Shown here piece by piece: positions 56,191 to 64,000 of a DNA stretch of 64,000 nucleotides. A model generated the notes under the pieces. It was given only the letters and a program-made list of their open reading frames with translations. It ran no database searches and had not been told where the DNA came from. Positions within the stretch are counted from its first letter, which is position 1; the number at the start of each line of letters is the position of its first letter. Source of the stretch: Pseudomonas hefeiensis (GTDB lineage: Bacteria; Pseudomonadota; Gammaproteobacteria; Pseudomonadales; Pseudomonadaceae); contig NZ_CP117449.1 of NCBI RefSeq assembly GCF_030687835.1, positions 5,208,001 through 5,272,000 on the forward strand, given 5' to 3'. A program made the translations under genes and the position numbers.

Positions 56191-56275
56191 GCCCTGATGG
56201 CGGAATTGGTAGACGCGGCGGATTCAAAATCCGTTTTCGAAAGGAGTGGGAGTTCGAGTCTCCCTCGGGGCACCA
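56191..56275 (+). tRNA. tRNA-Leu (CAA)
   Basis: 85 nt with a 7-bp acceptor stem (GCCCTGA/TCGGGGC, one G-T pair), a class II long variable arm, TTCGAGTC T-loop and encoded CCA. The anticodon loop TTCAAAA gives CAA, reading UUG. In P. aeruginosa the tRNA-Leu beside queA is a known island insertion site. Confidence 0.96.
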
Positions 56276-56451: not shown

Positions 56452-56573
56452 AATACCCAACCTCATAGTGAGGAAGATCCAGTGGTAAGGAAGAACCTGG
56501 GAGCAAGGAAGAACCAGTGGTAGAGAAGAACCGGTGGTGGGGGGAAAACCTGTGGCGAGGGAGCTTGCTCCCG

Positions 56574-56579
56574 CTTGAG
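56574..56579. repeat. Target site duplication, left copy (CTTGAG)
   Basis: CTTGAG directly before the left IS end; the same six bases follow the right end at 58544-58549. Confidence 0.85.
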
Positions 56580-56662
56580 TGTCAGTACCGATGCAAAACT
56601 GACCCACCCTACCGGTTGAAAACTGACCCACTTGGGCAAAATGCAGCTTTTGCGAGCTGCCC

Positions 56663-57681
56663 ATGCTGTCCAAGGAGCAACACGTGGAAATCAGTGTTCT
56701 TGTTCGTCAGGGTTTGTCTATTCGAGCTATCGCTCGGCAGATGGGCTGCTCACGCAATACCATTCGACGCCACCTCAAATTACAAGCCCAGCGCCAACCC
56801 GTCGTCTACGGCCCGCGCGCGGAGCGCGTGGGCAAGCTTGCGCCTTTCGAGGCCTTCCTGCGTCAGCGCGTAGATACCGCTCGGCCACACTGGATCCCTG
56901 CGATTGTTCTGCTCAGAGAGATCCGAGAACAGGGCTATACGGGCGGTTACTCCATCCTCACCAGCTTTCTGCTGACCTTGAAATCCAAGGCCAACGAGCC
57001 CGTTGTGCGCTTTGAAACAGAGCCTGGCGAACAGATGCAGGCGGATTTCACGATCATTCGACGTGGCCGCGATCCGCTGTTGGCATTTGTCGCAACGCTG
57101 GGTTGGAGTCGCGCCACTTACGTTGTTTTCTCGCGACGGGAAGACTCCGCAGCCTGGTGCGCTGGCATTGAAAAAGCCCTGCATTTCTTCGGCGGCACGC
57201 CACGCAAAGTGTTGTTCGACAACGCCAAGACCATCATCCAAGAGCGCGATGTCTATGGCCCCGGCGAGCACCGTTGGAACCCGGCTCTGTTGAGCTTGGC
57301 AGAACGCTATGGCTTTACGCCAAAGGTCTGCCGGCCCTATCGAGCGCAAACCAAGGGCAAGGTTGAGCGCTTCAACCACTACCTGAAAAACAGTTTCGTC
57401 GTGCCGCTGGCAGCGACACTTAATCAGGTCGGTTTGGTGCTGGATGTCGAAGTCGCGAACAGCAAAATCGGCCCTTGGCTGATCGATATCGCCAATGCCC
57501 GAACTCACGCTACGACCGGTGAAATCCCTCAGTATCGCCTGGATAAAGAGGTGCACTATTTGCTGCCGCTGCCAGCGCTTCAAGACGTTCCGAGCGCTCT
57601 GATACAAGCCATTCAGCCCATACCGGTGGAGAGCCTGCAACATCCACTGTCGGTCTACCAAGCCCTGCTTGAGGTGCGAGC

Positions 57682-57685
<4 letters not shown>
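56663..57685 (+). CDS. istA: IS21-family transposase IstA
   Basis: A 340-aa DDE transposase. The N-terminal HTH (GLSIRAIARQMGCSRNTIRRH, about 16-36) is followed by the catalytic core with Asp in MQADFT, Asp in VLFDNAKT and Glu in KGKVERFN. The stop overlaps the istB ATG (ATGA). Confidence 0.95.
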
Positions 57686-58469
<784 letters not shown>

Positions 58470-58543
58470 ACAGACTTTAAATACCGCCGGGGTGGGTCAG
58501 TTTTACTTCGGTAGGGTGGGTCAGTTTTCAACCGGTGTTGACA

Positions 58544-58549
58544 CTTGAG
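58544..58549. repeat. Target site duplication, right copy (CTTGAG)
   Basis: Matches 56574-56579 and marks the right boundary of the IS. Confidence 0.85.
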
Positions 58550-58660
58550 CGCAAAGCGCTCACAAAAAAGTCACCACCCCCACCGATACTCCGATCTGCC
58601 AAATCCAAGACATACACCATCACCCCACCCTCCCCACCCAGTCACAAAGGATTTCACCCC

Positions 58661-58990: not shown

Positions 58991-59182
58991 GCAGGACTCT
59001 CCTAAAATAACTCTGCTCCCTTCTCCCTTAGCTGAATTTTTGTCGGGTGTCCGTCTTTTTTCAAATCGCCCCCCTCCCCTCTCTCCACTGGAATGGATAT
59101 CTAGCTGCCTCTCGGTACATAACTTTGATACATTGCTCCGACACCGCTAGCCTGTTCTGCAAGCAACGAAAGGGAGGGATCT

Positions 59183-61297
59183 ATGACTCTAGATGTCAAG
59201 GGTGGTTTAAAAAATACAGATATCAGCTCAAATCAATACGTGGTTATCGAGGAATTGATATCCAATGCCATAGACTCTTATCTCATCCGAAAAAATCTCG
59301 AAGAAAACATTCCAAAGCTGAACATTGAACTTACTGTTGACTTCTTCCACTCCACGCTACTTGAAGATTCAAATTATGATATTTCAATATCTTGCAAGGA
59401 CAACGGAGCAGGTTTTGGAGAGGCACAAGTAAAAGCCTTCGTCACAAAAGACTCAACTTATAAGGACTATCTAAAAATACAAGGCATCGGAAAATGCAAG
59501 GGCGCGGGCCGAATACAATATTTTCACTACTTTAAAAATCTAAAAATAGACAGCTATTTTTTTGAAGAGCAGACATATAAACGCAAAACGCTGAACGTAA
59601 ACTCGGATACGCGAGAGATTTCAGAAGCACATTTCAACACATTGAAAAATATAGAAAAAAAGAGCGAGACCATTGTTAGCCTACAAGGTTTTTATGATAG
59701 TTTAATAAGCAACCAATTGAACAACATAAACTTAAGAGCTGAATTTTCAGCCCTTGCCGTACACAACTACCTATACACAACTTTTCTCCAACGCTTTATC
59801 ATTCTTAGAAACATAGTTGGAAGCTTCTCAATCGCGATCATAGAGCAGGAAGGAAGCAATATAGACAGCCTCACTATCAACTCGGAAGACTTACCCAGCC
59901 CCACCAGTGTTGAAGAAATACCGCTTATCTGCACTCATGGCAAAAGCGACCAAGTACTCCACTCATTAAAAACAACACGCTACTCCCTTCCCCGAGGACA
60001 ATTCAAAGATTCACAACACGAGGTAGCGCTCTGCGCTAACTCTGCAATCGTACAATCCTTAACGAAGCACTATCTAAGAAAGTTCCAAGATAGAAAAACA
60101 CCAATTGATGATCGCTTCGAACTATTGCTTATCGAAAGCGAACTTCTTGAGGAAAAGGTCAACATTCAACGAGATGGCTTTAACATACCCAAAGAGTGCA
60201 GCCCTAACAACGAGCTTATCGAAAGCCACTCCTTACAAGATATAATTGATTCGCTAGAAGACTATGTTTACAGCATCCTCACACCGAAAGACTTCGATAG
60301 AGATGCACTGCTTAATTCCACGCAAGCGAAATTCGGTATATCGAAGTCGATGCTCGAAGCTGTAAACATTAAAATACATTACAGCGACACAGAGGCAAAC
60401 ATTGCCAAGCGAGTGCTAAAAAAATATCAAGAGGAAATAGTTAACGAAACCTCGGACATTTTTGACATCAAACAAAAGCTACTGGACCTTGACCCCAGAA
60501 CGCAAGATTTCAGAGACAAGGTTAATGAACTATCTTGGAAATATACCAGCACTATAAAAAAAATGGATATGGCCAACCTTTCCCAGCTGGTCGTGCGACG
60601 TTCATCAATGATCGAAGTACTTAAAAAAGCAGTAAGCCTCCTTTTGAACTGTCAAGATGAGGCTGGAGTTAGGCGGGACGACGAAAAAATAATTCACAAT
60701 ATATTTTTCCCGACAGGAAAGGACAGCAGAGACCTCACCGACCATGATATTTGGATTCTCAATGAAGAGTATCATTACTTCGACCATATAGCTTCAGACA
60801 AACCTCTTTCGTCTTATCCATGGGGAAATAGTGAAAAACTATTCGAATCAGATATAGACTCTAGCTTAGAGCAACTATTCCGACGAAACAACACAGATCA
60901 CAAATTAAAACGACCTGACATTGCAATATTTAACGAAGAGGGAGCGGCAATAATAATTGAATTCAAAGCTCCAACTGTAGAGCTTCAAGAACACATACCA
61001 GATTTAGTCCAGTACGCAAGACTCTTGGCAGCAAAATCTAACGGCAAGATCAATAAATTCTACGGTTACTTAATAGGTGACTGTATGGATGAAAGCCGAA
61101 TGCCTCCTGCCTTCACACGCTTTCCTAGCGGCTTGGGATACTTCAATACAGATAGAATTCACGATCCTGTTACCGGCAAACAATATGGAGAATTATATTC
61201 TGAAATCCTCTATTATCAACAATTCATCAAAAGAGCCGAAAGTCGCCTTGATATTTACAAGAAAAGACTGAACATAACCAAGAGTTTTTCAGACTAA
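59183..61297 (+). CDS. GHKL-ATPase protein with C-terminal PD-(D/E)XK-like domain
   Basis: A 704-aa protein. The N-terminus is a GHKL (Hsp90/MutL/histidine-kinase) ATPase: N-box EELISNAIDS at 23-32, DNGAGFG at 73-79 and GIGKCKGAGR at 101-110. The C-terminus has a restriction-nuclease-like core: Asp579 in RPDIAIF and Glu593-x-Lys595 in IIIEFKAP, with helices following. The middle (about 200-560) has charged helical segments. GAAAGGGAGGG precedes the ATG. Codons are AT-rich, unlike neighbours, so it is probably acquired. I infer a nucleotide-gated nuclease with a defence role; MutL-like or Shedu-like proteins are relatives to compare. Confidence 0.72.
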   Translation: MTLDVKGGLKNTDISSNQYVVIEELISNAIDSYLIRKNLEENIPKLNIELTVDFFHSTLLEDSNYDISISCKDNGAGFGEAQVKAFVTKDSTYKDYLKIQGIGKCKGAGRIQYFHYFKNLKIDSYFFEEQTYKRKTLNVNSDTREISEAHFNTLKNIEKKSETIVSLQGFYDSLISNQLNNINLRAEFSALAVHNYLYTTFLQRFIILRNIVGSFSIAIIEQEGSNIDSLTINSEDLPSPTSVEEIPLICTHGKSDQVLHSLKTTRYSLPRGQFKDSQHEVALCANSAIVQSLTKHYLRKFQDRKTPIDDRFELLLIESELLEEKVNIQRDGFNIPKECSPNNELIESHSLQDIIDSLEDYVYSILTPKDFDRDALLNSTQAKFGISKSMLEAVNIKIHYSDTEANIAKRVLKKYQEEIVNETSDIFDIKQKLLDLDPRTQDFRDKVNELSWKYTSTIKKMDMANLSQLVVRRSSMIEVLKKAVSLLLNCQDEAGVRRDDEKIIHNIFFPTGKDSRDLTDHDIWILNEEYHYFDHIASDKPLSSYPWGNSEKLFESDIDSSLEQLFRRNNTDHKLKRPDIAIFNEEGAAIIIEFKAPTVELQEHIPDLVQYARLLAAKSNGKINKFYGYLIGDCMDESRMPPAFTRFPSGLGYFNTDRIHDPVTGKQYGELYSEILYYQQFIKRAESRLDIYKKRLNITKSFSD

Positions 61298-61529
61298 TAT
61301 TAGATTAGACAACATGCCGAACCGCAATTAATAAGAAACCAAATTTGTGCTTCCCAGCGACTTCAAGAATATTAACGGAGAAATGAAAAGGATACGGATT
61401 CATTTTCAGAAGTCCGTACCCGTTTTGGTATCGTTTGCAAACCACGTATCCTGCGCTTGAAACCTTTTCCATCACTCGCAACAAAGGGCACAAATTAACT
61501 TAATGCCAAGTAAGTAAATCCTTCTCTTT

Positions 61530-63054
61530 TTAAGCTGTTTTTTGGACCCATTGCGCCACCAGCCGATCTAACAAAACAGGAGAATTGCTGATAAATAACT
61601 TAAGCCAATGTGTGCGCTCATCGCTTGGCAATACTCTTGACGAATTCAGAACGGCTCTGCGAGCTTTTCCTCCTAGATTATAAACAGTCGCCTTGTGATT
61701 TCGCACCCACGCCACATTTTTGTTAGTGATCGCAGCCTGAGCTTGGTTTTCAATGTTGGGACCGTTAAAAACAAACGCATATAGCTTCGCCGATTTCAAT
61801 AGATTAGCGTTTTGGGCGATGTACCATTCCAACCAGAAACGGCATATTTGACTGTCGACAGCTGAATTATCAATTATCGCTTCAATGACGGGAAGATTTT
61901 TTTTTGCAAAATCATCATCTGTAACTTCATGAAGATACAATACAACATCATTTATGACGGGGGAAAAAAAGTCGAAATTTGAGAAAATTACAGAGGCAAT
62001 ATTTGATTGCTTGTTACGGCGAGCAGATCTGATAATACTCCTTGCAAGACCTAGATCCAGATATTCGTAGGTGATAATTTTTTCTATTGCCGCCAACAAT
62101 TTAAACTCCAAAATTAATTCCTCATCGTCAATTTCAACCTCTACCTGCTCCATTTCATTAGTATATGCGTTAAAAATCTCCAAGGTTTCAAGGAGCTGAA
62201 CCTTCTCTTCGGCATAATGATTGTGAAGATGTTTCTCAACAAACTCTTTTGAATCCATTAAGAAGGTTTTTTCAGAGGAAACGGTTAGGCGATGATTTTC
62301 ATATAGATACATGGTAAGGCTTTCAAGTACACCGGATAGTTCTCTAGTTGAGTTTGAGAAAATTCGAATATCATCAACATACCGAGTGTGATGCACTCCT
62401 TGGTCTTTCAAGAAACGATCAATATCTATGAATACCGCCTCGGCCATAATGATACTGGCGGCAGGCCCAACCGGAATTCCTTGGGAAGATTTGCTATTTT
62501 GGGTTGAAAGGAAGGTCTCTATATCATCCCCAAGAGGCTTGAGCATCGAGTCAGCGATTTCGATGGCATTGTTTAGACGGTGAAGGTAAATCTGATTATA
62601 GAAGTCAGTGATATCGGTAATTAACACCGTACTATACTGATTGGCTAGCTCTTCCGTCTTTTTGGTAAAATCGGCCCATCCAGATCCTGCACCAAAAAAA
62701 TTTCCGTCTGAAATTTGTAGACGATACGAACAGGCAATGTGCTCTTCGCTGGGTATGCGTGCTTTTTCGACCGCCTCAGTGACTTCGCAAGCCAAGGCGG
62801 TATAAATGACTGAGTCGATAGGTTCAAGTTGATGGACAATTCGAAAACCACCTTTGGGTTTTGCGATGGTCATGGCCCGCGGTTGTGTTACCCACAACTT
62901 AGCAATATTTTTTTGACATCAACTCTTTTTTTACATCGTCCCATTGATACCATAGAGCCTCATACTCGATTGGTTTAGGAAAAAAATCCGAGTCATAGTA
63001 CTTGCTTATATGTTCGCGCGCGAAGTCAAGCGATTTTTCGCTAAGTATGGCCAT
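61530..63054 (-). pseudogene. Reverse transcriptase of abortive-infection/unknown-group type, frameshifted
   Basis: The ATG at 63052-63054 opens MAILSEKSLDFAREHISKYY and on to ELMSKK, stopping at 62899. A one-base change in the A7 run (62908-62914) joins it to the long frame ending at 61530, giving about 507 aa. The long frame alone (from TTG 62897) is 455 aa. RT signatures: KPKGGFRIVHQ, SYRL, catalytic TDITDFY, SQGIPVGPAASIIMAEA and RYVDDIRIF with the YVDD box. The last 250 residues are helical, as in AbiA/AbiK-type and other defence RTs. No maturase or retron motif seen. The exact subgroup is not assignable here. Confidence 0.8.
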
Positions 63055-63198
63055 CGTGTGTATTCTCCATTAACGTTTTAACGTTGTTGTTAATACCTAA
63101 ATCATCCCTCGGTTCGTTGGCTACTATAACTCCTCTTTCCGACTACACTTTTATCTGATCAGTTGTTTCAGTCAGATCACATCCATTTGAAATCTGCC

Positions 63199-63909
63199 TC
63201 ATTGGAAATTTGAAACAATAAACTCAGCTTCATCCACACTTATGAATTCAGCCGCGTGTGTAAGAATCGTTTTGGAGTCTGAAGCAAATGGAAATCCACC
63301 AGCATCAACCCTGATAGCTCTTAGGACTTGGTCTGGTATTTTGGCTGCAACTTTGTATGCTGACCAATATTTAGTATTCATACCTATCGGGCTGTCCCCG
63401 AACGGTAGTTCTTTGTATTCAGCGATATACTTAGAGTACATTTCCTCCGCAAACTTCACGGCCACCCCTTCATCAAGAGAACTCGCAGATATGATTCCAC
63501 CTGTCGGAGCCAGTACAGGGTTCAAGAGATGAATCACCTCGTGAGCAATCTGATAAAATACTCGCTCCCAAGTATTAAATTCAGGGCCTATTTTTATACC
63601 TACATCCAACTCCCCATGGAAAGCAATTATCCGAGAATTAGAGCAAGGGTCTTCAGAACAATATATCGGACGCTTAAAAATTTTCTTTCCGTCGAACTCC
63701 CCATATCTAAATCGAGCGATAGACTTCAAAGCGTCCTGCACGAGGTACATGATGTCAATACTTGGTGAGCTTTCTTGCGTCGGTTGCAAATCACCAACCA
63801 GGTTCAAGGCATTAAGATAACTGACTCTCTTGACTTTCTCGGCGGGAGAATAGTCAGTGTCTTGGATTACTTTTATAAGCGCCGAAATAAATTTCTTAAT
63901 AAGACACAC
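63199..63909 (-). CDS. HExxH metallopeptidase-like protein
   Basis: A 236-aa soluble protein. HEVIH at 123-127 is the zinc-peptidase HExxH motif; Glu147 in LDEGVAVKF, 20 residues later, could be the third ligand as in gluzincins. The N-terminal 60 residues are helical and AT-rich in code. The start is GTG at 63907-63909; no in-frame ATG lies near. It is 144 bp upstream of the reverse transcriptase on the same strand, so the two may share a transcript. Substrate unknown. Confidence 0.65.
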   Translation of the reverse strand: MCLIKKFISALIKVIQDTDYSPAEKVKRVSYLNALNLVGDLQPTQESSPSIDIMYLVQDALKSIARFRYGEFDGKKIFKRPIYCSEDPCSNSRIIAFHGELDVGIKIGPEFNTWERVFYQIAHEVIHLLNPVLAPTGGIISASSLDEGVAVKFAEEMYSKYIAEYKELPFGDSPIGMNTKYWSAYKVAAKIPDQVLRAIRVDAGGFPFASDSKTILTHAAEFISVDEAEFIVSNFQ

Positions 63910-64000
63910 CCCATATTAAATCTACACGTTATTACTTAAAAAAATCAACCAGAAAAAAGTAATTGATCCGTTTACAATGGCAAACCCATTGCAAATAAAT
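63910..64000. other. AT-rich window end
   Basis: The last 91 bp are AT-rich and likely hold the promoter of the peptidase-like gene. I see no gene start. Confidence 0.4.

Follow-up and report, generated by a model that had tools for sequence, protein, structure and literature searches.

The stretch of DNA analysed here, hereafter the window, covers 64,000 nucleotides of the one-contig, 6.45 Mb genome of Pseudomonas hefeiensis (G000:C1:5208001-5272000). Close to its right end three genes lie side by side in an AT-rich tract: they encode a predicted GHKL/PD-(D/E)XK protein (P1), a reverse transcriptase (RT) and a predicted metallopeptidase (P3), and a sequence-only reading had proposed that the three function together as an anti-phage module. 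We conclude that the tract is very probably a small and ordinary defence island, which holds three independent single-gene cargoes near a tRNA-Leu, one of them apparently disabled. The joint three-gene module was rejected, as the genes fail to occur together in the genomes and stretches that we searched.

Three adjacent genes that do not recur together

The main features, in coordinates of the window, are the following.

59000-64000, no strand: AT-rich tract with three genes; it runs on for about 0.2 kb to the right of the window
59183-61297, plus strand: P1, a paraMORC3-type protein by predicted architecture, 704 amino acids (GHKL and S5, helical middle, C-terminal PD-(D/E)XK)
61530-63054, minus strand: whole RT gene, Drt8 in PADLOC, frame broken
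61530-62897, minus strand: main open piece of the Drt8-type RT, 455 amino acids from a TTG, Drt8 in PADLOC, catalytic YVDD
62899-63054, minus strand: first 51 or so codons of the RT, out of frame with the main piece; seven consecutive A mark the break
63199-63909, minus strand: P3, a predicted zinc metallopeptidase, 236 amino acids (H123-E124-x-x-H127, E147)

The GC content is 0.34-0.48 over about 59.0-64.2 kb, versus 0.54-0.66 in the 1-kb blocks of the remaining window, and besides P1, RT and P3 no further open reading frame (ORF) of the tract was judged to be a gene. P1 comes first on the plus strand, followed by RT and P3 on the minus strand; P1 and RT are convergent, with 232 bp between the two gene ends. 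All three ORFs have homologues elsewhere, hence they are not chance ORFs. The coordinates, the GC content and the homologues bear out the claim that three foreign, AT-rich ORFs stand side by side, and the motif classes first assigned to them were right: P1 has Pfam matches to HATPase_c and HSDR_N (weak, both under the curated cut-offs), the RT matches RVT_1 above the cut-off, and the motif of P3 reads HEVIH.

We searched 398 genomes sampled from the genus (the three genus searches, like those of the class and of the phylum, cover samples of larger groups). The RT found a match in 11 of them (7 at 1.2e-49 or better, P. hefeiensis included), P1 in 4 (3 strong, one at 26% identity) and P3 in 2, and P. 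hefeiensis is the only genome which figures in more than one of these lists. Whole-genome searches of 39 genomes carrying P1 relatives, a set which held no positive control and from which that of L061 was left out, found a close Drt8 RT in 0/39 and P3 in 0/39. Neither P3 nor a close relative of this RT was found in the 43 loci of the P1 family (0/43), neither P1 nor P3 was detected by tblastn in 13 other Drt8-type stretches (0/13), and the lists of plasmid records matched by P1, by the RT and by P3 have no accession in common. The co-occurrence that a joint function calls for is thus missing: no other genome of the 398 has two of the three genes, and the 39 genomes and 13 stretches behave likewise. 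This is a useful negative result: a defence island suffices by itself to bring three defence-like genes side by side in AT-rich DNA.

The proposal that each gene is of an anti-phage type fared better for two of the genes than for the last. PADLOC names the RT as Drt8 (428 bits), and P1 qualifies by its architecture and by its relatives in defence islands although no PADLOC model matches it well; each of the two fits a separately described kind. P3 has no tie to defence other than where it lies. The RT and P1 are known kinds, and P3 is an uncharacterised predicted peptidase.

A Drt8-type reverse transcriptase whose frame is broken in the assembly

The PADLOC profile Drt8 (PDLC03783) is matched at 428 bits and 1.5e-128 over its positions 53-492 of 493, the next family reaching 113 bits, and the catalytic residues D95, D98, F99, Y173, D175 and D176 (DIxDF, YxDD) are invariant in 6/6 sequences. 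Judged by this profile, the RT is a Drt8, a known kind of phage-defence RT; we take DRT8 to be the same as UG7. It shares with DRT8 the nearly full-length profile match and the catalytic residues, but its frame is broken here after about 48-51 codons of the assembled sequence. The profile match runs across stops, and profile positions 1-52 are missing from the main ORF because the start of the gene lies in another frame. Hence the RT gene was listed correctly as far as its main ORF goes, which is real, but not as an intact gene.

A relative of the RT, at 90% protein identity, is an intact gene (L022, in genome G096) which matches the Drt8 profile over 2-492. In the upstream piece, 47 codons align to it without gaps. 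The open piece differs from it by a nonsynonymous divergence (dN) of 0.049 and a synonymous one (dS) of 0.684 over 454 codons, and of the 24 differences in the first 47 codons 22 fall at third positions. This indicates that the RT was constrained until recently, so that the break is young or is an assembly error in the homopolymer. The RT is probably inactive here, unless the break proves to be such an error. The DNA in common with G096 is as follows.

61510-63102, minus strand: stretch common to the window and to the locus L022 of G096 (blastn, 85.5% over 1596 bp)

By sequence comparison the RT travels alone; the shared part is confined to the RT gene, 48 bp before it and 20 bp after it, and beyond these the surroundings differ. 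Over 9 kb, the tRNA alone reached the gathering score in Rfam, with no match to a cis-encoded RNA. As less than 50 bp are conserved on each side and Rfam was negative, a long conserved RNA beside the RT is argued against; a short or distant RNA may exist.

The 13 other Drt8-type stretches, 4.9-16 kb long, comprise 6 from the genus, 3 viral contigs and 4 from the class and phylum samples. Five of the 6 genus RTs were run against PADLOC (L026, a shorter frame of 393 amino acids, was left out), the class and phylum four were found with the Drt8 profile, and the three viral RTs have 35-54% identity over about 450 residues, these being the 3 kept from a viral scan of at least 67 loci, of which 64 with short weak matches were dropped. 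Excluded from the Drt8-type set were the RT matches L018-L021 and the plasmid RTs L201 (28%) and L202 (23% identical); plasmid records with an RT match number 30, of which 3 cover at least 80% of the query. The neighbours of Drt8-type RTs are varied: an OLD-like ATPase and a UvrD-like helicase in L024, a cyclase with an AGS_C sensor in L027, HsdR- and HsdS-like proteins in L130 (the names in L024 and L130 were given by eye) and a HerA/DUF87 protein in L205.

One of these loci, L203:2338-4821, encodes a Drt8-type RT of 827 amino acids with a C-terminal extension, which gives a weak DUF3108-like match below the cut-off, and which adjoins two small ORFs resembling a toxin-antitoxin pair. A fusion of the RT with a nuclease was rejected for L203, as the C-terminal stretch has no nuclease match.

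P1, a predicted GHKL nuclease

P1 is laid out as a GHKL ATPase followed by an S5 domain, the module extending over residues 4-400 or so, with the nuclease residues D579 and E593-x-K595 in the C-terminal part. In an alignment of 40 family members (the broken or partial genes L073, L080, L081 and L084 were left out), the GHKL motif residues E24, N28, D31, D73, N74, G75, G77 and T163 are invariant in 40/40, and so are the C-terminal E501, D579, E593 and K595, the assignment of E501 being our own. At E<=1, Pfam finds HATPase_c in 33/40 members and HSDR_N in 39/40. The architecture was read from motifs and a predicted fold, and the fold comparison barely covers the C-terminal part.

On this basis P1 has the paraMORC3, or GHKL-nuclease, architecture, which is a known kind. 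As described by Iyer et al. 2008 (PMC2292703), paraMORC3 combines GHKL, S5 and a C-terminal RE-fold with D...ExK in a standalone proteobacterial gene. P1 has this architecture and no difference was seen, the likeness to the published members being one of architecture. A second likeness is to VcSduA, a GHKL-type Shedu protein of Vibrio cholerae, which according to PMC12137116 is a single-gene phage defence requiring both of its active sites: VcSduA and P1 both have an N-terminal GHKL, a C-terminal PD-(D/E)XK and a single gene, but P1 matches neither PF14082 nor the PADLOC model SduA. SduA_C/DUF4263 (PF14082) is not among the 19 Pfam families matched at E<=1 by P1 and its 39 relatives, PADLOC SduA has no match in these 40 proteins either, and PF14082 has none in the genome of P. 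hefeiensis. The classification of P1 as a classical Shedu was not kept, PF14082 being absent. In a motif search of 20 PF14082 loci from 199 genus genomes, with one ORF per locus, a GHKL-like G1 box was found in one (L110), which L107 resembles by eye; the P1 profile aligns to L110 in the N-terminal part only, and PADLOC SduA matches L110 weakly (4e-4).

The family of P1 counts 43 loci, that is 40 genome contigs and 3 viral contigs (IMG/VR), and its relatives are undercounted because the genome scan used two peptide patterns. No match to P1 was found in phage records; 16 plasmid records have one, 6 of them covering at least 80% of the query. The best PADLOC 2.0 match among the 40 members has an E of 0.011. 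The 26% identical relative in G011 (L036) aligns with P1 over its full length, but it gives no nuclease match in Pfam at E<=0.5 and none to PADLOC at 0.01.

The relatives of P1 are tied to defence islands, with no fixed partner. When the 588 ORFs called in the 43 loci were clustered, no neighbour family occurred in more than 5 loci. At 1e-15, PADLOC found 264 families among 98 neighbours of P1 relatives (26 of the 43 loci, genes called by a simple script) versus 2 families among 97 control proteins from 18 stretches, which we chose ourselves on contigs with an RT elsewhere (97 of 105 proteins were scanned, 8 being dropped for size). These counts are of families and not of proteins: they correspond to at least 12 of the 98 neighbours, if no protein is double-classed, and to at most 3 of the 97 controls. 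Restriction and Septu genes are far commoner beside P1 relatives than in the control stretches. The analysis thereby adds a family of 43 loci, tied to defence islands, which no PADLOC 2.0 model matches well.

In Mariprofundus and Ghiorsea (L047:5793-13298 and L048:5829-14276), P1 relatives stand within type I restriction loci with HsdM-, HsdS- and HsdR-like genes, the type I families coming from PADLOC and the Hsd names being read by eye. In Rheinheimera soli (L046:2189-7776), a P1 relative of 57% identity (among the closer ones), a gene of 157 amino acids and an RT of the UG5-nitrilase class follow one another head to tail and nearly without gaps; a regulator-like ORF precedes the P1 relative, and the whole is a possible paraMORC3-RT operon. 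In two Pseudomonas genomes (L023 and L034), a Drt8-type RT and a P1 relative, one per genome, occupy similar hrpA-like/LysR-like surroundings.

P3, a predicted metallopeptidase

P3 is predicted to be a zinc peptidase from its motif: H123, E124, H127 and E147 are invariant in 5/5 aligned sequences. We liken it, as an assumption of ours, to the gluzincin-type HExxH metallopeptidases, with which it shares the HExxH motif and, 20 residues downstream, a conserved Glu, but the four libraries Pfam, NCBIfam, PHROGs and PADLOC have no family model that it matches at E<=0.1, and PDB sequences gave no match at E<=1. Within the genus sample, G119 is the only other genome with a relative of P3; further relatives stand in 38 plasmid records (18 from Klebsiella, 10 from Enterobacter and 7 from Yersinia), of which 23 are predicted to be conjugative and 6 cover at least 80% of the query. 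All these relatives have 28-39% identity. In the three plasmid relatives that we opened (L088, L089 and L090), the part similar to P3 is the C-terminal part of proteins of about 370-430 amino acids. Phage records and viral contigs gave no match. It is position alone that links P3 to defence. P3 adds a plasmid-borne family of predicted metallopeptidases without a model in these libraries.

Proposed mechanism and alternative explanations

In the defence island that we favour, each protein would work by itself. P1 most likely acts alone as an ATP-gated nuclease: its GHKL-S5 module would dimerise and clamp DNA on binding ATP, and the clamped module would license the C-terminal PD-(D/E)XK domain to cut the invading DNA, a gating and a target that are borrowed from MutL/MORC and from VcSduA. 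An intact Drt8-type RT, too, would most likely work alone, synthesising DNA with no separate conserved RNA gene, in the manner of DRT4, and so stopping the infection. Such a single-gene mode fits the data, because the conserved unit leaves little room for an RNA and Rfam finds none. P3 would be a zinc peptidase of the island. According to PMC13213688 (section 4), DRT4 is a single-gene system making random single-stranded DNA, and DRT8 has no established mechanism.

Several points weigh against this explanation. The mechanisms of P1, RT and P3 are proposals. The comparison with DRT4 is a guess, because sequence comparison with solved RTs gives weak matches to a variety of types (the best is 7r08, at 1.4e-8; a retron, UG15 and Drt3a are among them), and the link between P1 and VcSduA is one of architecture only because the Shedu domain is not detected in P1. 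The introduction of PMC12596737 ascribes a PD-(D/E)XK domain to DRT8, and P1 is such a protein standing beside a Drt8 RT; the PD-(D/E)XK part is not inside this RT, and no such neighbour common to the Drt8-type loci was seen. DRT8 RTs may moreover use separate effectors, because a PNP-type effector is listed for DRT8 in PMC10952713. In L206 the Drt8-type RT has a NOV_C/PDDEXK_5 protein close by (1 of 10 proteins scanned), and nuclease-like neighbours were recognised by eye, with no Pfam match, at L129:3964-4914 and L026:5987-7108. Finally, two P1 loci of the 43 (L046 and L071) contain an RT by our own RT profile, versus 0.14 expected (Poisson P(>=2) 0.008), an expectation for 0.65 Mb of loci that uses the density of RVT_1 matches (42 in about 201 Mb) in the same genomes, with both nearby RTs included; the RT of L046 is in one apparent operon with the P1 relative.

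The PD-(D/E)XK domain ascribed to DRT8 and carried by P1, and the nuclease-like neighbours in L206, L129 and L026, speak for P1 and the RT being a two-gene DRT8 system, in which P1 would supply a PD-(D/E)XK nuclease under the joint control of ATP and of the DNA that the RT makes, with P3 as a bystander; the short distance between the two gene ends agrees with it, as does L046, where the RT lies two genes downstream of the P1 relative on the same strand. Yet the two genes are convergent and form no operon, the RT is broken while P1 is open, and the 90% identical RT relative has no P1, the RT gene alone being shared. Neither the Drt8-type stretches nor the genomes of P1 relatives repeat the pair, the RT of L046 belongs to another class and that of L071 has no class assignment, so that we hold a two-gene system to be quite improbable. 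More generally, paraMORC3-type GHKL nucleases might be recurrent partners of defence RTs, a GHKL-S5 clamp capturing the DNA product of the RT and thus licensing the nuclease; the Drt8 island and L046 would then be two independent pairings. This would offer a testable effector for DRT8, for which PMC13213688 gives no established mechanism, but we consider it very improbable: the RTs near P1 relatives are explained by the clustering of defence genes, because their classes differ. GHKL nucleases and defence RTs may be loosely linked.

The small island of independent genes also has to be compared with two readings of the whole tract. If the tract were a decayed remnant no longer serving defence, with a dead RT, the break in the RT frame and the absence of a second copy of the tRNA 3' end (see below) would be accounted for, but the frames of P1 and P3 are uninterrupted and retain the residues of their motifs, and the RT is still strongly constrained relative to its relative; we think this unlikely. 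That all three genes make up one new defence system, as first proposed, draws on their adjacency, their similar base composition and the lack of other genes in the tract. Elsewhere, in the genomes and stretches searched, no two of them occur together, P1 is convergent to RT and P3, and the RT is split, which makes such a system extremely improbable.

Surroundings of the tract

Two further features lie to the left of the tract.

56191-56275, plus strand: tRNA-Leu(CAA), left of the AT-rich tract
56572-58551 (about), plus strand: insertion sequence (IS) with istA/istB-like genes and terminal inverted repeats of 60 nt, 82% complementary

The names istA and istB are presumptive, and we take the element to be IS21-like. 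A tRNA-Leu and an IS had been noted next to the genes, and both are present, but the IS is set off from the AT-rich tract by about 0.6 kb of DNA, which includes an ORF of ordinary GC content and resembles (74-76%) sequence from two near relatives. A search of 58 kb for a second copy of the tRNA-Leu 3' end (18-26 nt, up to 2 mismatches) gave none. As this repeat was not found, an element integrating at the tRNA is unsupported, and the tRNA-Leu was rejected as an attachment site. To the right of the AT-rich tract, a stretch of about 660 bp (L009:10737-11401) is present in two copies, about 4.7 kb apart, in the near relative G010 (L038).

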